IMG/VR virus record: IMGVR_UViG_3300045768_000052
Coordinates: 1-24,165 of that record
Length of the DNA: 24,165 nucleotides
DNA from: a virus
Direction: 5' to 3' (one strand)
A program made the translations under genes and the position numbers. The first letter of the stretch is position 1, and each line of letters starts with the position of its first letter. The notes beneath the pieces are model-generated. The model was not told the DNA's origin, did not search any database, and was given only the letters and a program-made list of their open reading frames with translations. Shown here one piece after another: positions 1-22,343 of the stretch.

Positions 1-597
1 TCATGCTCCGGGCGTGGCGACAGCCTCGGGCTCAAGCGCGCGGTAGACGGTCTGGCGGCTGACGCCGACTTCGTAAGCGATGTCCGCCACGGTGTGGCGC
101 CTCTTGCCGGTCTCGTCGGTCTCGGCGTACATCAGCCGGACGAGTTCGATCTGACGGCGGCCGAGCTTGGCCTTGCGTCCGCCGGTGCGACCGCGGGCAC
201 GGGCGGCAGCCAGGCCCTCGTTGGTGCCCTCCACGATGAGTTCGCGCTGGAACTCATCGATTGAGGCGAGCAGGTGGAACACGAGACGACCCTGCGGCGT
301 GGTCGTGTCGATCGACTGCTTGATGACCACCAGGCCGATGCCGCGCTTCCGGAGGTCCTCGGCCAGCTCGATCATGTGCTTGAGCGATCGCATCGCCCTG
401 GAAAGCCGGGTGATGACGAACACGTCGCCCTCACGGAGGTAGGCGAGCGCCTTGTCGAGCTCGGGGCGGCTGGCGTGCTTGCCGCTGACACCGTGGTCGA
501 TGAACAGCTTGTCGACGCCATAGGTGGTCAGGTCATCGACCTGAGAGTCGTCATTCTGGCCGCGGGTGCTAACCCGGGCGTAACCGATCTTTGCCAT
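1..597 (-). CDS. Serine recombinase (resolvase/invertase family), 198 aa
   Basis: Small serine recombinase expected to cut and rejoin DNA at paired short sites, as in cointegrate resolution or segment inversion. The N-terminal catalytic domain carries GYARVSTRGQ with the nucleophile Ser10 and Arg8, then ITRLSRAMR (about residues 62-70) holding the conserved arginines. The long E helix follows, and residues 165-187 form a helix-turn-helix (VADIAYEVGVSRQTVYRAL). Length fits the 180-200 aa resolvase/invertase class, not the large serine integrases. I chose the ATG at 597 because family proteins begin M-x-K-I-G-Y-A-R-V-S; a start at 633 would add 12 unrelated residues. There is no clear ribosome binding site, but TACAGT lies 7 bp before the ATG, suggesting a leaderless message. 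The position usually occupied by Asp in DRxxR is Ser66. The window begins exactly at its stop codon. Confidence 0.93.
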   Translation of the reverse strand: MAKIGYARVSTRGQNDDSQVDDLTTYGVDKLFIDHGVSGKHASRPELDKALAYLREGDVFVITRLSRAMRSLKHMIELAEDLRKRGIGLVVIKQSIDTTTPQGRLVFHLLASIDEFQRELIVEGTNEGLAAARARGRTGGRKAKLGRRQIELVRLMYAETDETGKRRHTVADIAYEVGVSRQTVYRALEPEAVATPGA

Positions 598-612
598 ACG
601 AGAACTGTACCG
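598..612 (-). promoter_or_regulatory. Putative leaderless promoter of the resolvase gene
   Basis: On the minus strand TACAGT (plus coordinates 604-609) is followed by six bases and then the ATG at 597. A -10 box at that distance would place the transcription start on the A of the start codon, a leaderless arrangement common in actinobacteria. No good -35 box is visible 17 bp upstream. Inference from spacing only. Confidence 0.4.
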
Positions 613-705
613 TAAACGATATCCGTGGAACATAGATATCGGACACGAGTTTCGGACATTTTCAGCCTGCGGGAAGTCGGCTCCGGCGACGTGTACCGCA
701 AACGA
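606..705. repeat. Pair of 14-bp direct repeats upstream of the resolvase
   Basis: TGTACCGTAAACGA at 606-619 recurs as TGTACCGCAAACGA at 692-705, one mismatch in 14, 86 bp apart. Between them lie two GATATC copies (618-623 and 634-639) and two TCGGACA copies (638-644 and 652-658), in a stretch less GC-rich than the surroundings. The first copy overlaps the putative -10 box. Small serine recombinases act at arrays of such sub-sites next to their own gene and often repress themselves there, so this is a candidate res or operator region. Function is inferred. Confidence 0.4.
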
Positions 706-720
706 CCGTTTATGGACGCC

Positions 721-2244
721 TCACCATCCGGCGTCCGGACGCTCAGCACCCTGCGGAGCCTGGAACCCCGCCATGCTCAGCGTGCCGCGAGGTCGCGCCG
801 GGAACCACGTTCCGCAGGCAAGCTGCGTCGCGTTGACCAAGTCCGCTACGCCGAAAGCCCGGTAACCGGGATTCGGGCCGGGAACCATAGCCCGGACGGC
901 TTGCATCAAGGCCATCGCGACGTCAGGAGATGCCTGCCCGGCTGCCGGGCCGATCTTCAGGCCACCGGATTCGGTCTGCTCGTAGACCAGGCCGCGCAGC
1001 TCCGAGAGCAGCTGCTGATGGCGGGGCAGGATCAGCGTCCCGCGCTGCAGGCCGCCCTTCACGGCACCCATGCCGGCCATCTTGCTGCGCTGATCAGTCC
1101 AGACGCCGATCACGTGGCTGCCGAGGCCCTCGCGCCCCACACTGCGCCGCAGTTCCTGTGTCGGCATCGGGCCCGGGCCGTTGAGTTCGGAAGCGAACAC
1201 GTGAACCTGCCAGCCGCGGGCGATGTCCAGGCACTTGTCGACCATCGCGTGGTACGGCAGCCGGTGATGGCTTTCCAGCCACGGAAGCCAGAAGACGGCC
1301 TGGTCGTTGGCTCCCCCGTCGTCGAGCCTGCTGAGCAGGACGGCTGCCGAGGCGTCACGGGCATATCCCCAGTCCAGGCCGACCACGCCGCCGGAAGCCG
1401 GGTACTTCCGCTTGTCGCCGTACCAGTCGTCATCCCAGGTCGCGAGACCCTTCGCCTGTAGCGGCGTCGTCAGGTCGTAGTCGGCGACGGCAGACATTAT
1501 CTCGTCCTCGGTGAAGTACGCGCCGCTGACGTCGGTGAACTCCGCTTCGTAGGTGCGCGCGAAGATGTCGGGGTCCATCGTCTTGCGCTTCTCTTCGAGC
1601 CACTTCTTGCTGATCAGCGGCGATACTGACGCGGGAAGCTTCCATGACCGCACCCACTCGTCCGGCTGGTCCATGCCGCGCCGGTAGAGCGTCCGGAACC
1701 AGTGACGCGGACCGCCGAATGGCGTGCCCGCCACGATCACCCGCGCGTTCGCCCGGGCCGCGATGACCGGTTCGAGATGTTCCCAGAAGTCCGCATCCAG
1801 GTAACCGGACTCGTCTGCCAGCAGCGTGTCCACGGTCCAGCCGACCGCCTGTCGGATCGAGCTTGGGATAGCTCGAAGGACGCTGCCGTTGGACAGCTTC
1901 ATCAGGTGGGCCTGGTCGTCAGTGACAGACGCGCGGAGCATCGGCGCCGCCGCCGCGATCGCCTCGGCCGTATCGATCAGGCGCTTGGCCGCGTCATCGA
2001 TCGTCGAGGCGATGAGCACCTGGTGGCCCGGCTCCGACCATGCCCGGTGAAGGGCAATCACGGAAAGCAGCGTGCTCTTCCCGATCTGCCGACCGCCGAG
2101 CAAGACCCGGTATTTGCTCGGAGCCTCAGCTATCTCACGCTGAAACGGGAACAGGTTGATTCCGAGCACGACCTTCGCGAACTCAGCCGGCGACTCGATA
2201 CAGCGCCTGATCGCCGCATCGTCGAGGCGCGTCGCCGTGCTCAC
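721..2244 (-). CDS. terL: Phage terminase large subunit (TerL-like), 507 aa
   Basis: Packaging motor that translocates and cuts concatemeric DNA into a prohead. The N-terminal ATPase has Walker A GGRQIGKST at residues 50-58 and Walker B with acidic pair D144-E145 (TLLADES), followed by a coupling-type motif VIVAGTP near 169-174. The C-terminal RNase H-like nuclease has the expected acidic residues: D291 (GLDWGYARD), E353 (FASELNG) and D441 (SPDVAMAL). Length matches full-length terminases, and all catalytic motifs are present, so it looks functional. The GTG start overlaps the stop of the upstream small-subunit candidate by 4 bp. No portal gene follows; downstream comes about 120 bp of intergenic DNA and then the resolvase, which is unusual because portal normally follows TerL. 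Confidence 0.92.
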   Translation of the reverse strand: MSTATRLDDAAIRRCIESPAEFAKVVLGINLFPFQREIAEAPSKYRVLLGGRQIGKSTLLSVIALHRAWSEPGHQVLIASTIDDAAKRLIDTAEAIAAAAPMLRASVTDDQAHLMKLSNGSVLRAIPSSIRQAVGWTVDTLLADESGYLDADFWEHLEPVIAARANARVIVAGTPFGGPRHWFRTLYRRGMDQPDEWVRSWKLPASVSPLISKKWLEEKRKTMDPDIFARTYEAEFTDVSGAYFTEDEIMSAVADYDLTTPLQAKGLATWDDDWYGDKRKYPASGGVVGLDWGYARDASAAVLLSRLDDGGANDQAVFWLPWLESHHRLPYHAMVDKCLDIARGWQVHVFASELNGPGPMPTQELRRSVGREGLGSHVIGVWTDQRSKMAGMGAVKGGLQRGTLILPRHQQLLSELRGLVYEQTESGGLKIGPAAGQASPDVAMALMQAVRAMVPGPNPGYRAFGVADLVNATQLACGTWFPARPRGTLSMAGFQAPQGAERPDAGW

Positions 2245-2774
2245 TTCGCCTCCTGGCCGTCCTGGCCGTCCCAGACAGCCCGCACCGCCATGACGTGCTT
2301 GGCTGAGTCGTACGCCGCCGCCAGATTGCGGCCGAGCTTCGCCGCGCTGGCCGGGTCGAGACCAAGCTTGGACCGCAGGTTCGCCGCGTGCGCCTCGTAT
2401 CGGCGCGCCAGCTCCTGCGCCGACTCCCTCCGGCGGCTGACCGAATGCCGCGTCACCGTCCCCTCGCTGTGGTGCTCGTCCTCGTCGGTGACCGCGACGT
2501 CCGTCAGCGCTTCCTGCAGGTCGAGGCTGGCCAGGTAGTCACGCAGCTTGATGCACTGCGCTTCCGCGAAGCAGTAGGCATCGAGAGCATGAGCGAACAA
2601 CGCCTGTCGCAGGTAATCGGGGAGTTCCGGGTCGTCGAGGATCCCTTGCTTGATCTCCTCAGCGAGCGGCGCCGTCAGGCGCACCGACCGGCTGCCGTGG
2701 CGCACGGCCATCGTGTTCCCAGGCTCGAAGTCCGGGTGACGTCGGTCCCACTGCTGGCCGTCACGGCTGGTCAT
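2241..2774 (-). CDS. terS: Probable terminase small subunit, 177 aa
   Basis: Likely DNA-recognition partner of the large terminase. The region near residues 16-30 (FEPGNTMAVRHGSRS) is a signature I associate with actinophage small-terminase-like proteins. The C-terminal stretch around residues 132-150 (LRSKLGLDPASAAKLGR) resembles the conserved end of P27-type small terminases. The middle is helical and charged. The ATG at 2774 has an AGGAG ribosome binding site about 9 bp upstream, and the 3' end overlaps the TerL start by 4 bp, so the two are probably translationally coupled. The assignment rests on the neighbour and on motif recall; a different packaging accessory protein is possible. Confidence 0.68.
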   Translation of the reverse strand: MTSRDGQQWDRRHPDFEPGNTMAVRHGSRSVRLTAPLAEEIKQGILDDPELPDYLRQALFAHALDAYCFAEAQCIKLRDYLASLDLQEALTDVAVTDEDEHHSEGTVTRHSVSRRRESAQELARRYEAHAANLRSKLGLDPASAAKLGRNLAAAYDSAKHVMAVRAVWDGQDGQEAK

Positions 2775-2857
2775 TCTGCAACGCTCCTCTCGCGCGCGCG
2801 GGGTTCGGGCTGATCAGCGGCTTGGCGCACACGCCGACCGCGGCTTCGCTCTCCTTG

Positions 2858-3412
2858 TCATTCGGGTGTCCCGGCGCAGCAGCAGCGAAGCAGTCGCGCG
2901 CTGAGGACGAGGCCCGTTGTTTCCTTCATGCTGGTTTCCAGGGCCGAGTCGAGGAACTCCAGGTCGTAGCCGGGGACGCCGACGCCCGCCTTGATGTAGT
3001 CCCGGGTCTTGGTGATCGCCTCTTCCTTGGTCGTGGCGAGTACGAAGATTTCGGCGAGGACGCTGCTGGAGGAGTTCACGGCCCAGTCGGCGGCGGGGGC
3101 CAGGTCCGCGGAGCAGTACCAGAGCTTGAGGACAGCGTTCTGGTGCGCTTCGGGCTGCTCGAGGAGCACGCCTGACGCCGCTTCCTTGATGTTGCGGAGG
3201 GCGATGTCGTGGAGGAGGCGTTGCTCGTGGCTGACGGGCTGGCGGGCGTGGTCTGAGTCCTTGATGAGCGCTCTGGTTCTGGCGATTGCGTCTTCTTTGG
3301 TTCTAGCTAGCACGACGACCAGGCTGCCTGTGTAGGCGCCGTACCACAGCTTGGGTTCGCCGTCGTGTTCTGGCGCTTCGGGCTGCTCGGTTTGGTGGGT
3401 GGTGTCGGTCAT
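2858..3412 (-). CDS. Unknown protein made of two tandem repeats, 184 aa
   Basis: Family not recognised. The protein is an internal duplication covering most of its length. Copy one starts KLWYGAYTGS at residue 21 and continues through ARTKEDAIARTRALIK (36-51). Copy two starts KLWYCSADLA at residue 96 and continues through ATTKEEAITKTRDYIK (126-141). The following helices also match (ALRNIKEAASGVLLE against ALETSMKETTGLVLS). Each unit of about 75 residues looks alpha/beta: a strand, then a TK-E-A helix. The C terminus is unusual, ending LLRCCCAGTPE with three adjacent cysteines. The ATG at 3412 has a strong GGAGG site and overlaps the upstream small gene by 4 bp. About 80 bp separate it from the terminase pair. 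It could be a packaging or replication accessory protein; no function can be assigned. Confidence 0.8.
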   Translation of the reverse strand: MTDTTHQTEQPEAPEHDGEPKLWYGAYTGSLVVVLARTKEDAIARTRALIKDSDHARQPVSHEQRLLHDIALRNIKEAASGVLLEQPEAHQNAVLKLWYCSADLAPAADWAVNSSSSVLAEIFVLATTKEEAITKTRDYIKAGVGVPGYDLEFLDSALETSMKETTGLVLSARLLRCCCAGTPE

Positions 3413-3573
3413 GGGGTCCTCCTTGGGGTGAGTTGGGCGACTGCGGGGGTGTGGGGTGCGGGGAGGGTTCCGGGCTCGCGCATGAGCCGGTCGAGGTCGT
3501 GGAGCTCGGCGAGGCGGGTTAGGAGCCGGTCGAGGTCGGCGCGCGGGATCGCGGTGGTGATGGTGGCGGTCAT
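3409..3573 (-). CDS. Small hypothetical protein, 54 aa
   Basis: Short open frame beginning MTATITTAIPRADLDRLLTR. The ATG at 3573 follows an AGGAG site spaced about 9 bp, and the TGA overlaps the ATG of the next gene in an ATGA arrangement. The first half is predicted to be a charged amphipathic helix with repeated LDRL segments (DLDRLLTRLAEL, DLDRLMREP); the second half is proline-rich. It is the first gene after the repeat cluster, so it may lead the transcript running into the terminase genes. No family recognised. Support comes from the start signal and the overlap. Confidence 0.55.
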   Translation of the reverse strand: MTATITTAIPRADLDRLLTRLAELHDLDRLMREPGTLPAPHTPAVAQLTPRRTP

Positions 3574-3620
3574 GGATTCGGGGCTCCTGCGGGTGGGGTT
3601 GTGGGCGGTGCCGGGGGTGA

Positions 3621-3803
3621 CCTGTGACCTGTGACCTCCCTCCCTATAGGGAGGTCACAGTGGTCACACCCCCGGCTGACCTGTGACGGAACCTGTGATG
3701 TCACAGGTTTGACCTGGGTAAATGCGGGACCTGTGACGGCGGTTCGTGATCACGGGTCAAATCACCTCATTTCGGGCACCTGTGATGTCACAGGTTTGAC
3801 CTG
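3621..3803. repeat. Iteron-like cluster of CCTGTGA/TCACAGG sites
   Basis: Within 183 bp the heptamer CCTGTGA occurs at 3621, 3628, 3680, 3692, 3730 and 3779, and its complement TCACAGG at 3701 and 3788. GTCACAG also occurs at 3654. Two of these form ACCTGTGA-TG-TCACAGGT dyads at 3691-3708 and 3778-3795, each followed by TTGACCTG, making a perfect 26-bp direct repeat (3691-3716 and 3778-3803). A GATC-centred palindrome CGTGATCACG sits at 3745-3754. The last copy lies inside the final codons of the AAA ATPase gene. Such spaced sites next to a RepA-like helicase gene fit a replication origin; a multi-site operator or a partition site is the alternative. Confidence 0.8.
3629..3660. other. 13-bp perfect stem-loop inside the repeat cluster
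   Basis: CTGTGACCTCCCT (3629-3641) pairs perfectly with AGGGAGGTCACAG (3648-3660) across a 6-base loop. The loop region also holds an alternative palindrome TCCCTATAGGGA (3641-3652). There is no T-tract on the minus strand, so a plain intrinsic terminator is not well supported. It could be a structured origin element, an attenuator between the ATPase gene and the 54-aa gene, or simply two opposed binding sites. Confidence 0.6.
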
Positions 3804-4812
3804 CGGGGATTCTCCAGAAGTCCGTTTTGCCCGTTCCTCGTTCGTGCTTCTGCGCGAGGTTGTGGCGGGCTAGTTCGTTGAGGCTCCGGCTGACGGTTTC
3901 GCGTCTGAGTCCGTGGCCGTACTTGGTGGCGAGCCGGTCGGTGATCTCCCGGATGGTGGCCAGGTCGGCGGTGAGTACGGCCTGGATCTTGATGGCGGCG
4001 GGGGTGAGCTTGACGGGTTCTGGTGCGCCTTCCTCGTCGGTTTCGGTGAACCGGACGTCCATCACGGGGCCGACGTGGATCCCGATTTCCCACCAGCGGT
4101 GTAGCCAGCCGCGGCGGTCTTTGGTCACCTGCAGGCGCAGGACGCCGTTGGTGGTCCGGTCGAATGCCTGCTCGATGGAGAGCTTGAAGGCGACGTCGGC
4201 GGCGGCGAGTTTGGCGCCGCTGCCTCGGGCGAAGCGGGATGTCTCGCCGTTCTTGGTGTCGTGGTCGATGACGAGGACGGCGGCGCCGTGTTCGCGGGCG
4301 ATCGGTGTGAGCACCTGGGCCCAGAACTTCGTCACGTCGCCGGCGTTGTTCTCGTCGAGGCCTGCGCGGGACAGGAACGCGGCCGAGCTGTCCCAGAGGA
4401 CGATGCCGGGCTTGATGTCGTCGAGCAGCTCGCGGAGCTGCATCACGTCGTAGGTGCTCCAGCTGCGCGCGGGGAAGGGAAAGTAGCGAATCGCGCGGGC
4501 TTCGTCGGGGGTGGCGCCGAGCGCGATCAGTTTCTCGGCGATGAGCTCGGCGCCGCCTTCCTCGTCGAGGAACAGCACCTGGTGGCCGGCGCGAACGTGC
4601 CGGAGCATCCAGTGCATGGCGATGGTGGTCTTCCCGCAGTCGGGTGGCCCGGAGATCGAGTGCAGGCCACCGCCGTACAGCAGGTCCCCGCACAGCAGTT
4701 CGGGGGGCGGCACGCCGCGCTCGACCAGGGCGCCGAGGTCGAATTCCGCGAGGGCCCGCGGCGGCGCGGCGGGTGCCTCGTCGTCGTGGAAGGGGTTCGC
4801 TTCGCTGGTCAC
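3757..4812 (-). CDS. RepA-like AAA ATPase/helicase with C-terminal winged helix, 351 aa
   Basis: P-loop ATPase of the RecA/DnaB-like RepA group (AAA_25 type), probably a replicative helicase or loader for the element. Walker A is GPPDCGKTT at residues 55-63, preceded by the family's GGLHSISG strand. FLDEEGG lies at 81-87, Walker B is IVLWDSS at 137-143, and a VLVIDHDTK motif at 179-187 matches the conserved His/Asp block of hexameric RepA helicases. Residues about 270-335 look like a winged helix (REITDRLATKYG ... RRETVSRSLNELARHNL), which would bind DNA. The GTG start overlaps the upstream gene by 4 bp. The last 15 codons (AGQTCDITGARNEVI) run through the repeat cluster, so the C terminus is partly dictated by cis-acting DNA. 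Confidence 0.85.
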   Translation of the reverse strand: MTSEANPFHDDEAPAAPPRALAEFDLGALVERGVPPPELLCGDLLYGGGLHSISGPPDCGKTTIAMHWMLRHVRAGHQVLFLDEEGGAELIAEKLIALGATPDEARAIRYFPFPARSWSTYDVMQLRELLDDIKPGIVLWDSSAAFLSRAGLDENNAGDVTKFWAQVLTPIAREHGAAVLVIDHDTKNGETSRFARGSGAKLAAADVAFKLSIEQAFDRTTNGVLRLQVTKDRRGWLHRWWEIGIHVGPVMDVRFTETDEEGAPEPVKLTPAAIKIQAVLTADLATIREITDRLATKYGHGLRRETVSRSLNELARHNLAQKHERGTGKTDFWRIPAGQTCDITGARNEVI

Positions 4813-5108
4813 GCTGCCTCCGTGGCAGCGCCGCGGCCGGGGAAGTCACCGGGCCGCGGGTCGGCGAAGTGCTCGCGGCCGTCGGGTCCCCAGCGTTTGC
4901 GCTCGAGTTCGGCGAACATGGGTCCGCCGCGCGCGACGGGGCGCGCGATCTCGACCCACCGGCGGTCCATCTCCCTGTAGGCGTATTCGTAGCCTTCGCG
5001 TCGGCCGGCTGCGCGGCCGCGGGCGAACGCGGCACGCTCGGCAGCGTGAAGCCGGGTTAGCCACTGGTCACGTTCGTCCGAGACAGCCAGGAGGTCAGAT
5101 GGGGTCAC
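4809..5108 (-). CDS. Conserved phage/AICE hypothetical protein, 99 aa
   Basis: Begins VTPSDLLAVSDERDQWLTRL with a GTG start overlapping the preceding stop by 4 bp, and its own stop overlaps the ATPase start by 4 bp. The middle is a charged helix with a Gly/Tyr/Ala repeat (GRAAGRREGYEYAYREM), and the end has PMFAELERKRWGPDGR and PRPGDFPGR. I recall this layout from proteins beside AAA ATPases in Streptomyces prophages and integrative elements, but no function is known to me. A longer open frame in the same phase extends to 5294 but would overlap the next gene completely, so the GTG at 5108 is preferred. Confidence 0.75.
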   Translation of the reverse strand: MTPSDLLAVSDERDQWLTRLHAAERAAFARGRAAGRREGYEYAYREMDRRWVEIARPVARGGPMFAELERKRWGPDGREHFADPRPGDFPGRGAATEAA

Positions 5109-5308
5109 GCTGCCCTCCGTGCTGGCGGGGCGACGGTCCATGCCCAGCACCGGTCGACGCGCCGCATCCGGTACATCGCGCCAAGCACGGGCCGCAGGTC
5201 GACGACGGCGACCTCGAGCAGCCCGGCCAGTTCGTCGTCTCTGCAGCCGGTTTCCTGCTGGAGGACGGTCTCGGCGCGGCGGACGAGCCGCCACTGCTCG
5301 GGCGTCAC
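5105..5308 (-). CDS. Small helix-turn-helix-like hypothetical protein, 67 aa
   Basis: Starts with GTG at 5308, 4 bp after the nuclease gene ends, and overlaps the next gene by 4 bp. The composition is helical: EQWRLVRRAETVLQQETG, then DDELAGLLEVAVVDLRPVLGAM, then a strand-like RVDRCWAWTV. This pattern suggests a small winged-helix fold with a C-terminal wing, compatible with DNA binding. No family recognised with confidence. Its place between a nuclease and a helicase suggests a replication accessory role. Confidence 0.7.
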   Translation of the reverse strand: MTPEQWRLVRRAETVLQQETGCRDDELAGLLEVAVVDLRPVLGAMYRMRRVDRCWAWTVAPPARRAA

Positions 5309-5312
5309 TGGC

Positions 5313-5723
5313 TCAGCCTGCTTCCGGGGCGAACAGCTGGCCCTGGACAGCGGTGAGTTCAGCGAGCTGCCGGGCGATAGTCCCGTTCAGCAGGTCCCGC
5401 GGCCGCCACACCGCCCAGCTGCCACCTGCCCGCGTGATCCGGGCGCCGACAGCGCGCTGCGCGGGACTGAGCACGCCGTGCTCGGTCTTCAGCTCGCGGT
5501 AGATGATCCGGTTCCCGATGATGACCCAGTCGGGCCAGCCGGGTTCGCTGCCCCGGCTGTTCCGGACGTGAAAGCCGAACAGCCCGAGGTCGGTCATGAG
5601 CCGCCGGACGTGGGCATCGAGTGAATCCGGGCCCTTGTCCTCGAGCATCGCCGCGGCGACGGGGTTGCGCGTCATCGCAGCACTTCCACCGGCCGGATCC
5701 CGGCGATTCGCCCTGTCACTCAT
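5313..5723 (-). CDS. VRR-NUC domain nuclease, 136 aa
   Basis: Stand-alone PD-(D/E)XK nuclease of the VRR-NUC family, a virus-type group related to Holliday-junction resolvases. The active site is visible: GWPDWVI with D65, then IIYRELKTEHG with E77 and K79, and SPAQ with Q89. Length fits single-domain phage versions. I chose the ATG at 5723, which follows GGGAGG by 3 bp; this spacing is short, and a second ATG at 5675 with GGAAG 8 bp upstream is also possible. It is the first gene of the left block, directly behind the mirrored control element, so it probably leads a nuclease-wHTH-ATPase operon. It likely processes replication or recombination intermediates before packaging. Confidence 0.88.
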   Translation of the reverse strand: MSDRANRRDPAGGSAAMTRNPVAAAMLEDKGPDSLDAHVRRLMTDLGLFGFHVRNSRGSEPGWPDWVIIGNRIIYRELKTEHGVLSPAQRAVGARITRAGGSWAVWRPRDLLNGTIARQLAELTAVQGQLFAPEAG

Positions 5724-5729
5724 GCACCT

Positions 5730-5804
5730 CCCGATCAAGGTGCTATTAGGGTGACGCCAGCCGCCCTAGGGCCGTCAACGGTGCACGCGACATTGATCGG
5801 GTTC
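5730..5804 (-). promoter_or_regulatory. Left copy of mirrored promoter/operator
   Basis: Read toward the nuclease gene this contains, in order: CCCGATCA (5794-5801), a TCAATG/CGTTGA near-dyad, TTGACG (5773-5778, -35-like), GTCACC (5750-5755) 17 bp later, and TGATCGGG (5730-5737). The last element overlaps the ribosome binding site region. The same elements in the same order lie in the right copy at 6568-6641. The GTCACC is a poor match to a -10 box, so the start site is uncertain. Likely drives and represses the left operon. Confidence 0.65.
5769..5804. repeat. 36-bp inverted repeat, left copy
   Basis: Perfect inverted copy of 6568-6603. On the plus strand it begins GGGCCGTCAACGGTG and ends GATCGGGTTC; identity stops abruptly on both sides (next bases A/G outside and G/A inside). 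It starts 8 bp past the stop of the intervening 243-aa gene. Confidence 0.95.
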
Positions 5805-5812
5805 GGGGATGG

Positions 5813-6544
5813 TCATGAGTCAGGCGGGTACTCGCCGGCGACACCCGACCTGGACGGCCCGAGTAGTCCCATGTCCCGGGCACGCTGAACCCACCGCCTG
5901 GCCGTGGGCTCAGGAACCGGGACTCTCTTCCAGTCCTCAAGCCGCCTCATCAGCTGGCGCATAGGCGCTCGCGGGCTGTTCTCGACCGCGAAACGGTACT
6001 CCTGTGCCACCATCTCGAAGTGGTCGCGGGGGAGCGCCTGACCCCGGACCCTCGGGCCAGCGGGGGGAAGATCCGGCACTAGGCCGGGAAAGAGCTGGTC
6101 AAGGAACGGCCGCGACTTCCGGGGTCCGCTGTAGCTGATCACGGCTGGTAGACGGTACGTTTTCCCGCCATCCATGGTTTCGAAGTCATCGGGGTTGTAG
6201 CCGGGCCCGGCGAGTTCCGCGAGCTGGGCGGCCGTGACGATTTGCGGTGAGGACAGGGCAGCCGCCTCGTCGGCGATGGCCTGCAGGAGCTCGGTGATCC
6301 GGACCTTGCGCAAAGACGCCGACGTGATCTCGATGGCCTCGGCGCCCGCAGGATCGGGGATACCGAGGATAAGACCCGTGCACCGGAGCCGGCCGCCAGT
6401 TCCTACCGCCAGGCTTACCGTCACCGGATAAGGCAACCCCCCCTCGGTCAGGGTTACCCAGCCCCGCCCTGCCGCGAACTCGGCGACGTCGCCGCCGGTG
6501 TCGAGAGAGAGGCGAGGCTCTGCACGCTGCTTGTCGTCTGGCAT
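5813..6544 (-). CDS. Putative regulator between mirrored operators, 243 aa
   Basis: Conserved actinobacterial protein of unknown function. The N-terminal half is alpha/beta, with repeated strands about residues 27-75 (WVTLTEGGLPYPVTVSLAVG, then RCTGLILGI), and contains LRKVRITELLQAI. The C-terminal part, residues about 175-235, is helical and includes EYRFAVENSPRAPMRQLMR followed by PEPTARRWVQRARDMGLLG. I recognise that ending from Streptomyces proteins and read it as a helix-turn-helix-like DNA-binding segment. The ATG at 6544 has only a weak AGGG site. Both 36-bp repeats flank it closely, and the right copy covers its own promoter region, so autoregulation and control of both operons is the natural inference. 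Direct evidence of DNA binding is lacking. Confidence 0.8.
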   Translation of the reverse strand: MPDDKQRAEPRLSLDTGGDVAEFAAGRGWVTLTEGGLPYPVTVSLAVGTGGRLRCTGLILGIPDPAGAEAIEITSASLRKVRITELLQAIADEAAALSSPQIVTAAQLAELAGPGYNPDDFETMDGGKTYRLPAVISYSGPRKSRPFLDQLFPGLVPDLPPAGPRVRGQALPRDHFEMVAQEYRFAVENSPRAPMRQLMRRLEDWKRVPVPEPTARRWVQRARDMGLLGPSRSGVAGEYPPDS

Positions 6545-6567
6545 GCCTGAACCCTACCGGTGATGCT

Positions 6568-6603
6568 GAACCCGATCAATGTCGCGTGCACCGTTGACGG
6601 CCC
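6568..6603. repeat. 36-bp inverted repeat, right copy
   Basis: Perfect inverted partner of 5769-5804. It lies in the divergent intergenic region between the 243-aa gene (minus) and the operon starting at 6687 (plus). Confidence 0.95.
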
Positions 6604-6641
6604 CTTGCCGCACCGTGTCACTGTGATGAGCAGTGATCGGG
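6568..6641 (+). promoter_or_regulatory. Right copy of mirrored promoter/operator
   Basis: Contains CCCGATCA (6571-6578), TCAATG (6576-6581) and CGTTGA (6592-6597) as a near-dyad, TTGACG (6594-6599), GTCACT (6617-6622) 17 bp later, and TGATCGGG (6634-6641). GTCAC and TGATCGGG lie outside the perfect repeat yet match the left copy in order, with GTCAC at identical spacing and TGATCGGG shifted by 1 bp. This suggests functional constraint, not just duplicated DNA. It faces the operon that starts 45 bp downstream. Confidence 0.65.
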
Positions 6642-6686: not shown

Positions 6687-7421
6687 ATGAGCACGGGCAT
6701 TGCAGAAGCCGACCAGGCGGCCGCGGCCGCCGCGGTCGGCGCCGCCGAGGCGGATCTCGCGGCAGGACGGCGCGGGATAACCGCTGACACCCTGCACCGG
6801 CTCCGCGACGACTACCGACACGCCCAGCTGTCCGCTGAGGGTGCCAAGGTGAAGGCTGAACGTGCCCGCGAAGCGGCTCGCCTCGCCGCGCTCGGGGAAG
6901 TAGGCCGCCAGGTCGACCAGCTCGCCATCGCTGACGTGGCCGGCGAGCTCGCTGACGTGCTGCAGGTCATCACGGACGCCTGCGCCCGGGCGCGGAGCAT
7001 AACCGGGGCGTGGGATGGCTCCGTGCGGGACCTGATCGAAGCTGCGTGCGACCTAGGCGTCTCCGACGCCCCCCCGGGTGGGCCGGCCAAGGCCTCGGGG
7101 TATCTCGCGGCGAGGAACCTTGGCGGTGACCAGTCCATCACTCACCACCGTGTGCGGCTGACGCCTGTGAGTACGGACCTGGCCCGGGCGATCGACCGCG
7201 CCGTACTCGGGCACCCGGATGACGGACTCGCCCTGATCGCCGGTGTGCGCGAACTGCCGGAGCCGAAGCGGCCGGATCTCGTCGTGCGCGGCCGCGGCGG
7301 CTGGTGCCAACCGATTTTCGGGGAGCTCAACGAGAACCAGCGGAGCCAGGTCCGGACAGGTGATCTCAAGGTCCTCGACAACGACGAGGTAGAGGCGTGG
7401 CTGCGAGGTGATCTCAAGTGA
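6687..7421 (+). CDS. Hypothetical coiled-coil protein, first gene of the middle operon, 244 aa
   Basis: Family not recognised. Residues about 5-80 are alanine-rich, charged and strongly helical (AEADQAAAAAAVGAAEADLA, then KVKAERAREAARLAAL), consistent with a coiled coil. A central helical region follows, then a more globular C terminus with LVVRGRGGWCQPIFGELNEN and EVEAWLRGDLK. The ATG at 6687 lies 11 bp after AAGGAGG. The TGA overlaps the GTG of the next gene by 4 bp, so the two are coupled. Position at the head of a tape-measure operon suggests a structural or assembly role, but nothing in the sequence proves it. Confidence 0.78.
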   Translation: MSTGIAEADQAAAAAAVGAAEADLAAGRRGITADTLHRLRDDYRHAQLSAEGAKVKAERAREAARLAALGEVGRQVDQLAIADVAGELADVLQVITDACARARSITGAWDGSVRDLIEAACDLGVSDAPPGGPAKASGYLAARNLGGDQSITHHRVRLTPVSTDLARAIDRAVLGHPDDGLALIAGVRELPEPKRPDLVVRGRGGWCQPIFGELNENQRSQVRTGDLKVLDNDEVEAWLRGDLK

Positions 7422-8017
7422 CTTCCGCAGACTCCGATAGCGCCCTCGCGACAGATCTTGCCGCTGTTAAGCAGTCCCTCGACGCTCAGCAAGCGGCACG
7501 TGAGAAGCAGAATGACGCCCTGGCCATAGCGCTTGGCTTTAAGCAGCCTCCGCTCGACCCTCGGCAGGTCGCTGCGGAGCGGGAAAAGGCGGCGGCGGCG
7601 ATCGCTCAGCGGGACGCTGCCCTGCGAGAGCAGGCCGCAGAGAACGCGGTCTTGCGCCACGCCGGGAGGTACGGCGGTAACGGTACCGCGCTGGCTGATT
7701 CGAAGACGTTCATGTCCAGGGTGGCCAAGCTCGACCCGTCGTCAGCCACCTTCACCGAGGACCTCGGTGCCGAGATCCGGGCCGCGGTGGAATCCGGCCC
7801 GCGATTCAGGACCGGTGATGGCAGGCCCGCGAACGGGTCAAGGACCACCGCGCCGCCTATGGGTCCGGGCGGCGCGTCGGCTGGCGCCCGTCAGTGGACC
7901 CTCGACGACGTGAACCGGCTGCCCAGGAACCGCAAGGGCGCAGCCCAGTTGCAGGAAGCCATCGACGCCGGGCTCCTGCAAGACCTCGGCCACGGTCCCG
8001 CCAAGAACAGGCGCTAA
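7418..8017 (+). CDS. Scaffold-like phage protein, 199 aa
   Basis: Layout matches actinophage scaffolding-like proteins: a coiled coil over residues about 8-85 (AAVKQSLDAQQAAREKQND, then AAEREKAAAAIAQRDAALRE), then the pattern LRHAGRYGGNGTALADSKTFMSRVAKLDP (described here as residues about 80-107), and a flexible Gly/Pro/Ala-rich tail. Scaffolds guide capsid assembly and are normally encoded next to the major capsid protein, but no capsid gene follows here. GTG start overlaps the upstream stop by 4 bp, and the TAATG junction couples it to the next gene. The assignment is from recall of pattern and context; another coiled-coil assembly factor is possible. Confidence 0.55.
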   Translation: MTSADSDSALATDLAAVKQSLDAQQAAREKQNDALAIALGFKQPPLDPRQVAAEREKAAAAIAQRDAALREQAAENAVLRHAGRYGGNGTALADSKTFMSRVAKLDPSSATFTEDLGAEIRAAVESGPRFRTGDGRPANGSRTTAPPMGPGGASAGARQWTLDDVNRLPRNRKGAAQLQEAIDAGLLQDLGHGPAKNRR

Positions 8018-8331
8018 TGACGACCCCGGCGCCGTCGCAGGGTTCGTTGCCGCGTGTCGCTCCCGAGATCGGCCTCGATGCCCTCAGGGACGCGATCGCG
8101 GCGATCCGCTGCTCGTCGGCCGGAGATGCTGAAGGCGTCTACGCAGTTCTGGCTGGCAGTGACGCGCCTCGGCATGTCGCCTGGGTGCTCACTGCTGTCA
8201 CCGTCGTGCTCTGCCGCCGCGTTGGGCTCAGTAGCGACGACATCGCCGCACTGCTCAACGAGATCAGCACAGACTTCACGAACAGCGTCCTGGACCAGCC
8301 GCGCCCCGAGCTCGGCAACGAAGGCGGGTGA
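8017..8331 (+). CDS. Small hypothetical protein preceding the tape measure, 104 aa
   Basis: Starts at the ATG of a TAATG junction with the scaffold-like gene (a longer open frame from 7894 would lie inside that gene). Largely helical: GLDALRDAIAAIRCS, then HVAWVLTAVTVVLCRRVG, which is hydrophobic enough to be a buried helix, then SSDDIAALLNEISTDF. Its site directly before a tape-measure gene is where tail assembly chaperones usually lie, but it is one continuous frame without the usual overlapping second frame, and I see no frameshift signal. Function unknown. Confidence 0.7.
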   Translation: MTTPAPSQGSLPRVAPEIGLDALRDAIAAIRCSSAGDAEGVYAVLAGSDAPRHVAWVLTAVTVVLCRRVGLSSDDIAALLNEISTDFTNSVLDQPRPELGNEGG

Positions 8332-8337
8332 CGCCCT

Positions 8338-11300
8338 GTGTCCGAAGGGTTCCGGATCGCGACGGCTTGGGTTCAGGTGTCCCCGGACACCACGGGATTC
8401 AAGGAAGAATTGCAGGCCAAGGTCGATGAGGCCACCGAGGGTGTCGAGGCGAGCGTCCGGGTCGGCTTGGATACCAGCGAACTGGACGCGAAGGCCGACG
8501 AGGCTAAGGCGAAGGTCGACGAGCTCGACGGCAAGAAGGCCACCGCGACCGCCAGCCTGGACGACGCTGACCTGTCAGCCAAGGCCGATGACGCTACCGA
8601 GAAGCTGGCGCGCCTCGATGCCGGGGAAGCCAGGCCCACCCTCGAGCTGGAAGCCGCGGACTTCGACGGGAAGTCCGACGACGCGACCTCGAAGCTGGAC
8701 CGGCTCGACTCGGAAGAGGCACGGCCGCGGCTGGACCTCGACGACACCGATTTCAACGCCAAGATCGACGCGGCCGAGGCCAAGCTCGATGCGCTGAAGG
8801 AACAGTCCGCGACGATCAACCTCGGTGCCAGCGGCGGGGGCGGCGGCGGTGAAAGCGGGGGCGGCGAGGGCAGCCTGCTCGGTGCGGGCCTGCTGGGCGC
8901 GGGCGCGCTGATGCCCGGCCTCGCGGGTGCTGCCACCGGTCTCGGGCTGCTCGGCGCGACGGGTGCGCTGGCGTTCGGCGGGATCGCCAAGGCCCTCTCA
9001 TCCGCGCACCAGGCCAGCGAGAACGTCGGGATGACCAGCCAGCAGATGGCCGCGACCCAGTTCTCCAACGCCGTCGCGGTCCAGCAGGCGCAGCAGCAGA
9101 TCGGGGAAGCCCACCAGCAGGCGGCCCAGGACGCTACCCAGTCGGCTCAGCAGATCGAGTCGAGCCAGATGAACCTGGCGTCGGTTGAGCGTAACGCTGC
9201 CGCGTCGCAGGTCCAGGCGCTCCAGTCCGTCGAGCAGGCGCAACAGGGCGTCGAGCAGGCGAACTACGGGCTGTCTGAGGCGCAGTACAACCTGTCGCAG
9301 GCGTGGATCACCGCGAAGGAAGACCTGCAGAACCTCAACGACCAGCTCGCCGACTCCAACCTGAACGTCCAGGCGGCGCAGCTGGCGATCCAGCAGGCGA
9401 TCTACAACCAGACCCTCGTCGACCAGAACGCCTACTCCACCAGCCTTGACCGGCAGCAGGCCACCCTGGCTGTGGCTCAGGCGCAGCAGCAGCTCACCGA
9501 CGCTCAGGCAGCCCAGACCGACGCTCAGACCGCGGCGAACACCGCCAACCAGCAAGGCGTCGCGGGCTCGCAGACGGTGATCCAGGCTCAGCAGGCGCTT
9601 ACCCAGGCGCAGTACCAGCAGACCGACGCCGTGCAGCAGCAGCAGGACGCCTCGAACAACCTGACGTTGACCGAGCAGAACAACGCCGCGCAGGTCAAGC
9701 AAGCCCAGATGGAGGTCTCCCAGGCGCAGGAGCAGGCGGCCTACCAGCAGCAGCAGAACGCGCAGAACATCCGGATCGCCGAGCAGAACCTCACCAACAC
9801 GATCGAGGAACAGAAGCTCGAGTGGGCCGCGACGGAGTCCACGGAGAACCAGGCGGCTAACACGTTCCTGAAGGACATGGCGAAGCTGACCCCGGCGGGC
9901 CGGGGGTTCGTCAACCAGGTCCTCGCCATGAAGGGCGCGTTCCAGGGGCTTGAGTCGGTCGCCCAGAACGCGGTGCTGCCCGGCTTCACGATCTTCCTCA
10001 AGGGCATCCAGGATCTTCTGCCCACGCTCAGCGCCGGGGTCGGCAAGATGGGCACCGCTATCTCCAACGCGTTCGGCCAGTTCGGCAAGCAGATGCAGAC
10101 GTCATCGTTCGCGAAGGTGCTGCAAGGGCTGATGAACAACGGCACTCAGTTCGTGAACATCGTGCTGCCCGCGTTCGGCCAGTTCTTCCAGGAGCTGGCG
10201 AAGCTAGGCAGCACCAAGGGGGCGGCGTCCGGGCTGGCCAATCTCCTGGCGGGGGTGGCTAACGGGCTGACCGGGATGGCGAAGTCCCTGCAGCCGTACA
10301 TCCCGGGCATCGACAAGTTCCTTACCCAGGTCGGCAAGATCATCACTGACATCGGGCCGCCGCTCGGCACGATCGTCGGCCAGATCGCCACCGTCACCGG
10401 CGATGTGCTCAGCTTCCTGAACGCCCACACGCACGGCAACGCTGCCAAGGTGATCGGCGACGTCCTGGCCGGGCTGATCGCCCTCAAGGGCATGGAGAAA
10501 ATCCCCCTGCTGGGGAGCTTGCTCAAGGTCCCCGAGAACCTGGGCATCAGTCTGGGGAAGAAGCTAGGCACCTCGATCCTCAGCGGCATCAAGACCCGCA
10601 TGGGCGGCGGCGCACTGAAAGACGCCGTCGAAGGCGGAGAGGGAGCCGAGGGACTCGAAGGAGCCGAAGGACTTGAGGGGGCCGCCGGGGCGGCATCAGA
10701 GGGCGGCGGACTGCTGTCCGGCATCCTCGGCGGCGCGTCCCTCGGCCCGATCGGACTCGTAGGCATCGCCCTGGCCGGGGTCGGCGTCGGCGCCTATGAG
10801 CTGGCCAAGCACTGGAAGACCGTCTGGGGCGACATCAAGAAGTGGTCGTCGGACGCGGCCGGCTTCCTCAGTAACCTGTTCCACAACCATGTCGTGCAGG
10901 ACATCCTGGACATCTGGTCGCTCGGGCTGGTGCCGCTCGCGGAGCACTGGAGCACCGTGTGGGGCAACATCCAGAACTGGACGTCGGACGTCGGCACGTT
11001 CTTTACGCAGACGATCCCGAACGCCGTGCAGACGGGCATGAGTGACGCCTGGAAATGGTTCGACTCAACCTTCATCTCGCCCGTGGTGAGCTTCTTTACC
11101 AGCACCGTCCCCGGCTGGGGCGCTGATATCAGCAACTTCTTCACCCAGACGATCCCGAACTACATCAGGACCGGCATGACTACCGCCTTCGGCTGGATCA
11201 GGTCCACCTTCATCACGCCGGTCGAGAACTTCATCACCGGGACGATCCCCGGCTGGGGTACGGACATCAGCAACTTCTTCACCCGGACCATCCCCGGCGC

Positions 11301-12672
11301 TGTCTCCCAGGGTGTCTCTGCCATCGCTACCGTCTGGGACAAACTCGAATCGGTTTTCAAGACCCCGGTCAACTTCCTGATCAAAACCGTGTACGACGAC
11401 GGCATCGCCCGGCTGTGGAACGACGTGGTGGGCGCGGTCGGGCTCGGTTCGATCAAGCTTCCTATCATCCCGGCGCTCGCTGCCGGCGGTGTGGTGCCGG
11501 GCTGGTCACCGGGCCGGGATAACCACCTGGCCGCCGTCTCGGGCGGTGAGGGGATCCTGACTCCGCAGGCCACTCAGGCGGTCGGCGGCAAGGGAACCAT
11601 CGACGCATTGAACTCGCAGTACCCGTCGAGCGGATCAACGCCGGGTGCCGGCCACGCCATCACGAAGATGGCAGGGAAGGAACTCCGCAGGCACCTGGGC
11701 GAACGGCCGGCCGAGCACATCCTGACCGGCGGGATGTTCGCAGGAGGCGGCATCGTCGGTGACATCACCGGGGCCCTGTCCGGCGCCGCCCACGCCGTCG
11801 GCTCAGTGGTGTCGGGCGCGATCGACGTCGGGAAGATGATCGCAGCGGTGGCCACGGGCAACACCGCCGCGTTCGTCAACGCCGCATCGGCGGCGATCGG
11901 CACCCAGGCCGCCGGTGACCTCGGCAAGATCATGGTCGGCATCCCGAAGGCACTGGTCACCGACCTGGCCAAGGAACTCACCGGGGCCACCGCCACTTCC
12001 AGTGCGATCGGGAGCCTCCCGCAGAACTGGCAGACCATCGCCAGCTTCCTGGCCTCGCACGGGTTCACGAAGTTCGCGGCCGCGGGAGTCGCCGGGAACA
12101 TCGACGCCGAGTCCGGGGGCCGCCCCGAGCAACTCGAGATCGGCGGCGGGGGCGGCGGTGGCCTGATCCAGTGGACGCCTTATCCGGCGGGTTACATCAC
12201 CGGGAACGTCTCACAGGACCTGATGACGCAGCTGAACGCCATCTTGTCGTTCGGCGGTGGTCCGGGGCTGGTGAACCAGGCCACGTCGCCGTCCAACGCG
12301 GCGCAGATCTACCAGGACCAGTACGAGAAGCCCGCGAACCTCACGGCCAGCCTGCCGCAGCGGATGGCATCGGCAAACGCCGTCTACAAGGCGATGAACT
12401 GGGGTGCGTTCGACCAGGGCGGCCAGCTGCCGCCCGGCATGACGATGGCAGTGAACGCCACCGGCAAGCCCGAGGCGATCCTCACCAGCCAGCAATGGCA
12501 GACCCTCGCCGCGCTCGCCGACCACCTGACCGGCCGCGGACCGGCCGGCACCGCGGGCGCCGGCGCAGCGCAACGGCCGATCGAACTTAACTTCTACGGG
12601 CAGTACCCGACAGGGGAGATGAAAGCCACGATGATGCGAGAACTAGCGCTGGCGCTCGGAGGCGCATCGTGA
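8338..12672 (+). CDS. Phage tail tape-measure protein with C-terminal tail lysozyme domain, 1444 aa
   Basis: Tape measures set tail length and exit the tail during infection. Features in order: three to four tandem units of about 30 residues (about 30-162; each with a V/L-D-x-S/D-L strand and a KAD-E-A-K helix, such as LDTSELDAKADEAKAKVDEL); a glycine-rich linker; a hydrophobic Gly/Ala/Leu block (about 178-220); a long Gln/Ala-rich coiled coil (about 225-500); a second hydrophobic segment (about 788-822); three 46-residue repeats carrying FFTQTIP and PGWGADISNFF (about 881-1021); and residues about 1224-1352 resembling Phage_lysozyme2 (GVAGNIDAESGGRPEQ, GGLIQWTP). GTG start 6 bp after the previous stop. 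Expected genes for tail tube, distal tail and baseplate do not follow. Confidence 0.93.
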   Translation: MSEGFRIATAWVQVSPDTTGFKEELQAKVDEATEGVEASVRVGLDTSELDAKADEAKAKVDELDGKKATATASLDDADLSAKADDATEKLARLDAGEARPTLELEAADFDGKSDDATSKLDRLDSEEARPRLDLDDTDFNAKIDAAEAKLDALKEQSATINLGASGGGGGGESGGGEGSLLGAGLLGAGALMPGLAGAATGLGLLGATGALAFGGIAKALSSAHQASENVGMTSQQMAATQFSNAVAVQQAQQQIGEAHQQAAQDATQSAQQIESSQMNLASVERNAAASQVQALQSVEQAQQGVEQANYGLSEAQYNLSQAWITAKEDLQNLNDQLADSNLNVQAAQLAIQQAIYNQTLVDQNAYSTSLDRQQATLAVAQAQQQLTDAQAAQTDAQTAANTANQQGVAGSQTVIQAQQALTQAQYQQTDAVQQQQDASNNLTLTEQNNAAQVKQAQMEVSQAQEQAAYQQQQNAQNIRIAEQNLTNTIEEQKLEWAATESTENQAANTFLKDMAKLTPAGRGFVNQVLAMKGAFQGLESVAQNAVLPGFTIFLKGIQDLLPTLSAGVGKMGTAISNAFGQFGKQMQTSSFAKVLQGLMNNGTQFVNIVLPAFGQFFQELAKLGSTKGAASGLANLLAGVANGLTGMAKSLQPYIPGIDKFLTQVGKIITDIGPPLGTIVGQIATVTGDVLSFLNAHTHGNAAKVIGDVLAGLIALKGMEKIPLLGSLLKVPENLGISLGKKLGTSILSGIKTRMGGGALKDAVEGGEGAEGLEGAEGLEGAAGAASEGGGLLSGILGGASLGPIGLVGIALAGVGVGAYELAKHWKTVWGDIKKWSSDAAGFLSNLFHNHVVQDILDIWSLGLVPLAEHWSTVWGNIQNWTSDVGTFFTQTIPNAVQTGMSDAWKWFDSTFISPVVSFFTSTVPGWGADISNFFTQTIPNYIRTGMTTAFGWIRSTFITPVENFITGTIPGWGTDISNFFTRTIPGAVSQGVSAIATVWDKLESVFKTPVNFLIKTVYDDGIARLWNDVVGAVGLGSIKLPIIPALAAGGVVPGWSPGRDNHLAAVSGGEGILTPQATQAVGGKGTIDALNSQYPSSGSTPGAGHAITKMAGKELRRHLGERPAEHILTGGMFAGGGIVGDITGALSGAAHAVGSVVSGAIDVGKMIAAVATGNTAAFVNAASAAIGTQAAGDLGKIMVGIPKALVTDLAKELTGATATSSAIGSLPQNWQTIASFLASHGFTKFAAAGVAGNIDAESGGRPEQLEIGGGGGGGLIQWTPYPAGYITGNVSQDLMTQLNAILSFGGGPGLVNQATSPSNAAQIYQDQYEKPANLTASLPQRMASANAVYKAMNWGAFDQGGQLPPGMTMAVNATGKPEAILTSQQWQTLAALADHLTGRGPAGTAGAGAAQRPIELNFYGQYPTGEMKATMMRELALALGGAS

Positions 12673-14148: not shown

Positions 14149-14589
14149 TCAGCCCATTCCGGCGGGCCGGAGGATCAGCCTCGCCAGGACCTCAGCCGCG
14201 ACATCCTTGCCGGTGTCGCCGAGGAAGCCAGCGACCTGGCGCAGACGGCTCTTGCGGTCCGGGTCGGCCTCATGGTCCGCCACGTCATCGAAGGCGTCGG
14301 CCAAGCTCTTAGCCAGGCTGTCGCCGGTGGGCCACTGCCCGACCGCGCGCCTGGCCGCCGAGGTGACTTCCGTGACGTACCAGGAGTCCGGGTGCCCCCC
14401 GGTCATCATCTTGTTGTACTTGCGGATGTACGTCCCGGTCAGCGCATCGAGCGCCCGGTCCACCGTCTGCACGTCCATGCCGGTCTCGTCGGCGATATCG
14501 GCGACCCTTACTGCGAAGATGCCCTTCTCGAGCAGCCGGACCACCGCGTCCAGGACGGGCAGCTCCCGGCTCATCCACGTATCTTCCAT
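14149..14589 (-). CDS. Winged-helix DNA-binding protein, 146 aa
   Basis: Probable transcriptional regulator. Residues about 12-55 (LDAVVRLLEKGIFAVRVADIADETG, then VQTVDRALDALTG) form a helix-turn-helix, with YIRKYNKMMTGGHPDSWYVTEVT as the likely wing. The C-terminal third (DPDRKSRLRQVAGFLGDTGKDVAAEVLARLI) is a helical segment I recall from several actinobacterial proteins and may drive oligomerisation. Two starts are possible: ATG at 14589 (MEDTWMSREL) and ATG at 14574, the latter with GGAAG 8 bp upstream. A much longer frame extends to 15132 but would overlap the divergent gene. It transcribes away from the excisionase-like gene, forming a divergent regulatory pair. Confidence 0.8.
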   Translation of the reverse strand: MEDTWMSRELPVLDAVVRLLEKGIFAVRVADIADETGMDVQTVDRALDALTGTYIRKYNKMMTGGHPDSWYVTEVTSAARRAVGQWPTGDSLAKSLADAFDDVADHEADPDRKSRLRQVAGFLGDTGKDVAAEVLARLILRPAGMG

Positions 14590-14825
14590 ATCGGACCCAT
14601 TTCTTCCATTTTGTTCCGTGTAGTAATGAGGGGTAAGCAAACAGTAGCGATTCCGGGAGGCCGGACTCGGGATTTGCGCAGCGCCGCAAATGCCGTCCTG
14701 CGGGAACAGGCCCAGGTGCTCCTGATTCGCCCTGGTTTCCGCGGTAAGCCTCGACTCTCCCGTCTGAGTTGCGATCAGCGGCACCGATCCGGTGGTGCGG
14801 CAGGCTCGGTGCCGTGGCACCGCAG
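14590..14825. promoter_or_regulatory. Divergent intergenic region with GGCACCG half-sites
   Basis: About 236 bp between the winged-helix gene (minus) and the excisionase-like gene (plus). The part near 14590-14650 is less GC-rich than its surroundings and probably holds the leftward promoter. Close to the plus-strand start lie three related half-sites: GGCACCG (14780-14786), CGGTGCC (14807-14813) and GGCACCG (14816-14822). The last two form the perfect dyad CGGTGCC-GT-GGCACCG (14807-14822), a likely operator. Confidence 0.5.
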
Positions 14826-15161
14826 ATGACCATGAAGGAGTTGCTCGAGCTGCCCGTGGTCGTCGATCTGAGGACTGCGGCGCGGGCGTTCGGCATCGGT
14901 AAGAACAAGGCCTACGAGCTGGCTGCAGCCGGGAACTTTCCCTGTCCGGTCCTGCGGTTCGGCCAGAAGTACCGGGTGACCAGGCCCCACCTGTTCCGTG
15001 CTCTCGGCCTCGATCCGGCCATGGACCTCGAGGTCTGCGGCGGACGGGGTGATGACAATTCACCAGATGATGAATACGACGGCAGCTCACTTGACGATCT
15101 GGGTCACGGAAGAACCTCCCCGGTGACGACACGGGCGATGTCTTGGCCGTCTGCGACGTGA
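14826..15161 (+). CDS. Excisionase-like helix-turn-helix protein, 111 aa
   Basis: The core LRTAARAFGIGKNKAYELAAAG followed by FPCPVLRFGQKYRVTRPHLFRALG is the typical MerR/excisionase-type winged helix of actinomycete integrative elements, where it directs excision or acts as a regulator. The C-terminal 40 residues are acidic and disordered (DDNSPDDEYDGSSLDDLG) and overlap the end of the convergent gene at 15104 by 58 bp. Starts at 14826 (ATG), 14832 (ATG) or 14814 (GTG) are all possible; no clear ribosome binding site decides. In an AICE an integrase normally follows Xis on the same strand, but here none does. Confidence 0.72.
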   Translation: MTMKELLELPVVVDLRTAARAFGIGKNKAYELAAAGNFPCPVLRFGQKYRVTRPHLFRALGLDPAMDLEVCGGRGDDNSPDDEYDGSSLDDLGHGRTSPVTTRAMSWPSAT

Positions 15162-16686: not shown

Positions 16687-16845
16687 CTATGGGGTCGATC
16701 GGGGGCGCTGCCGGGTTTTGTGCCCGCACAGCGGATCGCGGCAGGTCACGGCCGGTGCGCGGTGTGCGTGGCCGGTCCGCTCGCGAGCGGGGACGCAGGT
16801 CAGCGCGTGTTCCGCTAGCGGAACGCCCTTCGGGGCTGCCGTCAC
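16687..16845 (-). CDS. Small Cys/His protein between traB and the zinc-ribbon gene, 52 aa
   Basis: Short frame beginning VTAAPKGVPLAEHALTCVPA and ending with TAG at 16687. Its GTG overlaps the traB stop by 4 bp (GTGA), as in neighbouring genes. The residues C17, C35, C40 and H42 (TCRDPLCGH) could make a small zinc site. It fills the otherwise non-coding gap before the AGGAGG of the next gene. Support comes from the overlap, codon use and Cys pattern; too short for family assignment. Confidence 0.55.
   Translation of the reverse strand: MTAAPKGVPLAEHALTCVPARERTGHAHRAPAVTCRDPLCGHKTRQRPRSTP
16777..16824. repeat. Two adjacent perfect palindromes inside the 52-aa gene
   Basis: CCGCTCGCGAGCGG (16777-16790, 14 bp) and GTTCCGCTAGCGGAAC (16809-16824, 16 bp) are both perfect and lie 18 bp apart, just after the traB stop. 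They may be protein-binding sites or hairpins that reduce read-through between traB and the next genes. GC-rich DNA yields chance palindromes, so the functional reading is uncertain. Confidence 0.5.
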
Positions 16846-18923: not shown

Positions 18924-18952
18924 GATGGTCACCTCACTTCGGTGGGAACCCG

Positions 18953-22109: not shown

Positions 22110-22343
22110 TCACCTCGAATCTGGCGGCCAGCTCTGGCCGTACGTGGGCGCCGCGGACTGCAGAGCGCGGCGGTAGGTGTGGGCTCTGCCCTCGGCGGCG
22201 AGGCAGGCGGGGCACGGCTTCTGACCGTGGCGGCGCTCCCGGCGGGCCCGGGCCTCAGTGCCGTGCGGACGGATGTCGGCTCGCTCATGCCAGCCGCGGT
22301 CGAAATTCGGCTCAAGGCCGACGACTTCAGTCGGCGCGCTCAC
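22110..22343 (-). CDS. Small CxxC protein, 77 aa
   Basis: The central ERRHGQKPCPACLAAEGRAH resembles the HG-x3-C-x2-C segment of many small actinophage and AICE proteins. GTG start overlaps the previous stop by 4 bp; the stop lies 4 bp before the next ATG. Only two cysteines, so a lone zinc site would need the nearby histidines or a dimer. Function unknown. Confidence 0.72.
   Translation of the reverse strand: MSAPTEVVGLEPNFDRGWHERADIRPHGTEARARRERRHGQKPCPACLAAEGRAHTYRRALQSAAPTYGQSWPPDSR

Follow-up and report, generated by a model that had tools for sequence, protein, structure and literature searches.

In bacteriophage lambda, the gene for the cI repressor lies between the left and right operators that control two operons transcribed outward, and the repressor also regulates its own synthesis; the lambda operators are triplets of symmetric sites bound by dimers. 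A different way of reading DNA has been described for actinobacterial phages, in which the immunity repressor of mycobacteriophage L5 and TipsytheTRex recognizes short asymmetric sites, some of them located within promoters (PMC9283540). The locus described here, from an uncultured actinobacterial provirus, resembles lambda in its layout, with a putative regulator gene between two control regions, predicted autoregulation and possible looping, and resembles L5 and TipsytheTRex in that it belongs to an actinobacterial phage and carries short asymmetric sites, some of them promoter-borne, to which binding is predicted.

The window, that is, the whole stretch of DNA that we analyzed, is the 24,165-base IMG/VR virus record IMGVR_UViG_3300045768_000052 (68% GC). 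The record opens with the stop codon of a serine recombinase gene on the minus strand and closes with an ATG read on the minus strand, and end repeats are absent; it is probably a provirus cut at gene boundaries out of a longer contig, and both ends may therefore lack genes. The putative regulator gene (5813–6544, minus strand, 243 codons) is flanked by the first genes of two blocks that point away from each other. To the left, on the minus strand, a gene for a VRR-NUC-like nuclease (5313–5723) opens an operon that continues (1–5294) with a 161-aa protein, a RecA/DnaB-type ATPase of the helicase/RadB type, a 184-aa protein, the small and large terminase subunits, and a serine recombinase of the DNA-invertase type (1–633, phrog_125). 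To the right, on the plus strand (6687–12672), the genes for a 244-aa protein, a scaffold-like protein (phrog_15186), a small protein and the tape measure protein follow one another. We found no terminator-like site between the regulator gene and the left operon.

Several further features of the record concern its overall make-up. The gene for the scaffold-like protein (7418–8338) almost directly precedes that for the tape measure, and portal, capsid and tail-tube genes are absent from the positions that they hold in relatives; in the related locus L135, the scaffold gene (3426–4208) and the tape measure gene (10001) are separated by head and tail genes spanning about 6 kb, and the DNA similarity between the window and L135 begins 16 bases 5′ of the tape measure start. 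The element could be mosaic, defective or a satellite, or else the genes might lie beyond the record. In the same record as the phage terminase and tape measure, positions 16842–18932 encode an FtsK/SpoIIIE-like protein of a type known from actinomycete integrative and conjugative elements, with 41–57% identity to proteins in many Micromonospora, Salinispora, Streptomyces and Actinomadura genomes, and positions 22340–23002 encode a DUF6919 protein (E 5e-40).

The earlier note on this DNA had pointed out a perfect 36-bp inverted repeat at the head of two outward operons, and this was borne out. The arms (5769–5804, read outward on the minus strand, and 6568–6603, read outward on the plus strand) both read GAACCCGATCAATGTCGCGTGCACCGTTGACGGCCC, are 100% complementary and are separated by 763 nt with the regulator gene as the single gene between them; no other perfect inverted repeat within 3 kb in the window exceeds 14 nt. 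The description of the right block as the tape-measure operon calls for amendment, in that the genes for the 244-aa and scaffold-like proteins come first.

Both within and beyond the arms lies a short box, TGATCGGG. The inner copies are part of the repeat (5794–5801, plus strand, on the left, and 6571–6578, minus strand, on the right), and the outer copies lie outside it (5730–5737, minus strand, and 6634–6641, plus strand). Counting both orientations (CCCGATCA/TGATCGGG), there are five exact copies in the 24 kb, four at this locus and one stray copy at 15990 within a gene. The four places share a longer box, TTGATCGGG, with TGATCGGG as its core, except that the first T is absent in the outer right box. 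The further elements reported in the earlier note were also recovered: TTGACG-N17-GTCAC is present in both copies, GTCAC is followed by the outer TGATCGGG after 12 bp in the right copy and 13 bp in the left, and the opposed outer and inner boxes are 55 and 56 bp apart. Measured from center to center, the pairs are spaced by 63 and 64 bp, or roughly six turns of the helix, which would allow looping without demonstrating it. The intergenic regions that hold the boxes are 63–64% GC.

How unexpected the outer elements are depends on the way in which the question is put. Recurrence of one 8-mer from the repeat in the two outer flanks of 60 nt, at offsets that differ by no more than 1 nt, would be expected 4e-6 times by chance given the observed word frequencies and 1e-5 times under a first-order model, and about tenfold should be allowed on either figure because the 8-mer and the flank length were chosen post hoc. 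Overall similarity of the flanks, taken without the 8-mer as a prior, is weak, with 1.3% of random pairs drawn from the window aligning as well. Judged from the sequence, we consider that the mirrored boxes together with the repeat are a real cis-regulatory feature.

In each copy, the outward TTGACG is the start of a candidate promoter: TTGACG-N19-CACCCT on the left (5748–5778, minus strand), which holds GTCAC at 5751–5755, and TTGACG-N19-CACTGT on the right (6594–6624, plus strand), which holds GTCAC at 6617–6621. The −10 boxes of both are weak and would not persuade by themselves. For the left operon, ATG 5723 is a more likely start codon than TTG 5738, and its putative Shine-Dalgarno sequence, GGGAGG, overlaps the outer left box.

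A better promoter candidate, overlooked in the earlier note, lies in the right copy and faces the regulator gene. The minus strand through the right arm reads ...CATTGATCGGGTTC and then AGCATCACCGGTAGGGTTCAGGCATG, and contains TTGATC-N17-TAGGGT (6551–6579), the only strict match to TTGAY-N16-19-TANNNT on either strand of the window and the joint best score in a relaxed promoter scan. A scan with an E. coli-type consensus found nothing, and the −10 consensus in Streptomyces coelicolor is TANNNT (PMC4895711). The predicted promoter ends 6 nt before the ATG at 6544, so the regulator mRNA is probably leaderless and the gene self-regulated; leaderless mRNAs arise from 21% of primary transcription start sites in S. 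coelicolor, and many of them are linked with transcriptional regulation (PMC4895711). The inner right box overlaps the −35 element of this promoter, and since TTGATCGGG would then be both the shared element and the −35 of the regulator gene, autoregulation is the simplest reading. The inner left box, unlike the right one, is not followed by a −10 box.

The 243-aa protein had been credited with an HTH-like C terminus, and the structural model agrees: a three-helix HTH is predicted with pLDDT of about 97 over residues 171–230, and the model outside the HTH, including the N-terminal part, is poor (mean 61.6). The protein had no match in Pfam, PHROGs or NCBIfam, and a fold search of the model against the PDB returned nothing below E 0.001. 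Relatives were reached by searching 395 actinobacterial genomes and with a profile made from the first ones found. They make up a dispersed family whose N-terminal domain is marked by the motif ITxxxLRxIxI and whose C terminus carries an HTH; one member is weakly similar to DUF6214. Residues 160–237 of the 243-aa protein match the C-terminal HTH of the family in profile and pairwise comparisons, and its EITSASLRKVRITELL aligns with the ITxxxLRxIxI motif, at low identity to the relatives (17–33%, alignment A2). These matches place the 243-aa protein, as a distant member, in an actinobacterial integrase-linked HTH family, possibly an undescribed family of regulators. A limited literature search on DUF6214, on conserved inverted repeats of phiC31 and on tape-measure-bearing actinobacterial phage satellites yielded no papers.

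Several relatives are encoded between a small, divergently transcribed gene for an HTH_17 excisionase-like protein and a tyrosine integrase gene directly downstream. The integrase is confirmed by Pfam in L104, L107 and L110 and weakly matched in L100; in L088 and L102 only the appearance of the N-terminal sequence suggests it, and the first 110 residues of the downstream neighbor in L088 had no Pfam match. An HTH_17 gene adjoins the relatives in L088, L098, L100, L102 and L110. More broadly, an HTH_17-type gene lies upstream in these loci and in L104 and L107, most of them with a tyrosine integrase downstream. Because several relatives adjoin a tyrosine integrase and an HTH_17 gene, it is reasonable to class the 243-aa protein as a regulator of the life cycle of a mobile element. 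The HTH_17 and integrase arrangement is not found at the regulator gene of the window, nor at L086 and L105, and we treat these flanks as typical of the family rather than defining for it. In L088, L102 and L137, both orientations of a TTGCTC-like motif are found repeatedly in the divergent gap upstream of the regulator gene. Repetition of a box within the intergenic regions of relatives was clearly above that in shuffled sequences only in L088.

Searches of phage records at the DNA and protein levels, scans of IMG/VR (with the regulator, helicase, terminase, FtsK-like and tape measure proteins as queries, along with an exact 36-mer scan) and genome scans did not yield a relative carrying the repeats, and among the relatives and viral contigs scanned neither the 36-mer nor a box pair at a promoter was found. 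A pattern scan of viral contigs for CCCGATCA..TTGAC..TGATCGGG gave five matches, none like the locus in the window: four share one near-identical sequence that resembles a single conserved coding region (the frame was judged by eye), and the fifth (L133) was rejected as unrelated.

We propose, at what we regard as an even chance of being right, that the 243-aa HTH protein controls itself and both flanking operons through the boxes, the left copy being an inverted duplicate. The protein would recognize the asymmetric box TTGATCGGG by its TGATCGGG core, and binding at the inner right box would close the regulator's own promoter at its −35 element, resulting in negative autoregulation. In each copy, the opposed boxes, about six turns apart, would bracket the outward promoter region that begins at TTGACG, and occupation of both, with or without a small loop, would switch both outward operons off. 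The helicase and terminase genes on the left and the scaffold and tape measure genes on the right would be off together and would be released jointly once the protein is lost. The right copy would be the counterpart of the divergent control region between the regulator and the excisionase-like gene in the relatives, and the left copy, as its inverted duplicate, would bring the helicase and terminase operon into the regulon. Within this scheme, binding, repression rather than activation, looping and the duplication history are parts that we infer. The perfect identity over 36 bp suggests either a recent duplication or copies kept alike by recombination; it exceeds what an operator alone requires, and we count this against our explanation. 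The claim of the earlier note that one regulator sets both operons through twin operators gains from the shared cis-elements at both operon heads, the C-terminal HTH and the loci of the relatives, and loses from the poor outward −10 boxes.

Weak outward −10 boxes are also what would be expected at activator-dependent promoters or those read by an alternative sigma factor, and the twin promoter/operators might be read by some other factor, such as a special sigma factor, a regulator of the host or a different HTH protein encoded by the element, with the 243-aa protein lying between them by chance. The window does encode further proteins with weak HTH matches (14149–14700 and 14769–15161); however, the inner right box serves as the −35 of the promoter predicted for the 243-aa gene itself, and the relatives of this protein hold regulator positions beside divergent genes, and we consider such a factor rather unlikely. 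The same weak −10 boxes, and the presence of TTGACG downstream of the inner boxes in both copies, would suit an activator that binds at the inner boxes, about 55–60 bp upstream of the expected starts, and turns on the outward promoters. The outer boxes, however, coincide with the expected start or follow it closely, and one of them overlaps the Shine-Dalgarno sequence, which favors joint repression; activation from the inner boxes, though a serious rival, seems to us improbable.

The remaining explanations view the 36-mers or the mirrored boxes as sites for DNA transactions other than transcription. Small serine recombinases act on near-symmetric crossover sites of about 26 bp, which are inverted in invertible segments, and the window encodes a recombinase of the DNA-invertase type and carries perfect, inverted repeats; the 835-bp regulator cassette might accordingly flip. 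However, the best dyad within the 36-mer is no stronger than chance allows (shuffled versions do as well in 66% of cases), flipping would not account for the boxes repeated beyond the arms, and since each promoter is split between a −35 in the repeat and a −10 in the flank, all three promoters would survive an inversion, which would alter nothing but read-through from the regulator gene, so that we grant this a small probability. That helicase/RadB-type ATPase encoded in the left operon could instead point to sites of replication origin or partition, but the intergenic regions are not markedly A+T-rich and there are only four copies of the box, in fixed promoter-like positions and with one forming a −35 box, which makes this role very unlikely. 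A single gene between perfect inverted repeats is likewise the plan of a small insertion sequence with the 36-mers as its terminal inverted repeats, a reading that we find scarcely credible given the absence of a target-site duplication (the flanks are CCCTA and CTTGC), of any transposase match for the 243-aa protein in Pfam, PHROG or NCBIfam, and the presence of conserved boxes outside the repeats and of relatives of the protein in integrase loci.

If control by the 243-aa protein is right, it would assign a testable function to a protein family from several actinobacterial integrase loci, and mirror-image copying of one control region would be a route by which a phage can enlarge its regulon by a whole operon. 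The boxes, promoter and start site are predicted precisely enough to permit a quick experimental decision. In a wider and more tentative generalization, which we think may well turn out to be wrong, the integrase-linked HTH proteins would constitute an undescribed class of life-cycle switch in actinobacterial mobile elements, targeting short asymmetric boxes within a divergent and partly leaderless promoter region, and the mirror duplication in this provirus would have joined replication and packaging with morphogenesis.

With respect to this family, the locus in the window shares the homologous protein with its C-terminal HTH, and several relatives are transcribed away from the HTH_17 gene, but here there is neither an adjacent integrase nor an HTH_17 gene; phage operons take their place, and the control region is duplicated. 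The comparison with L5 is similarly mixed. The L5-type repressor acts as a monomer on one asymmetric site through two DNA-binding domains, and its sites are 13-mers, present in more than 20 copies per genome and oriented with transcription, whereas in the window a single gene is surrounded by four 8-bp boxes arranged as opposed pairs; many intergenic sites spread over the genome, as in L5, are not found, four of the five exact 8-mers being at this locus. Compared to lambda, the boxes are asymmetric, the two control regions are identical over 36 bp and mirrored, and the operons are those of helicase and terminase and of scaffold and tape measure. To conclude, without claiming membership in either the lambda or the L5 group, we consider that this provirus probably carries a dual-operator-like switch, of a kind familiar among viruses but in a new arrangement.
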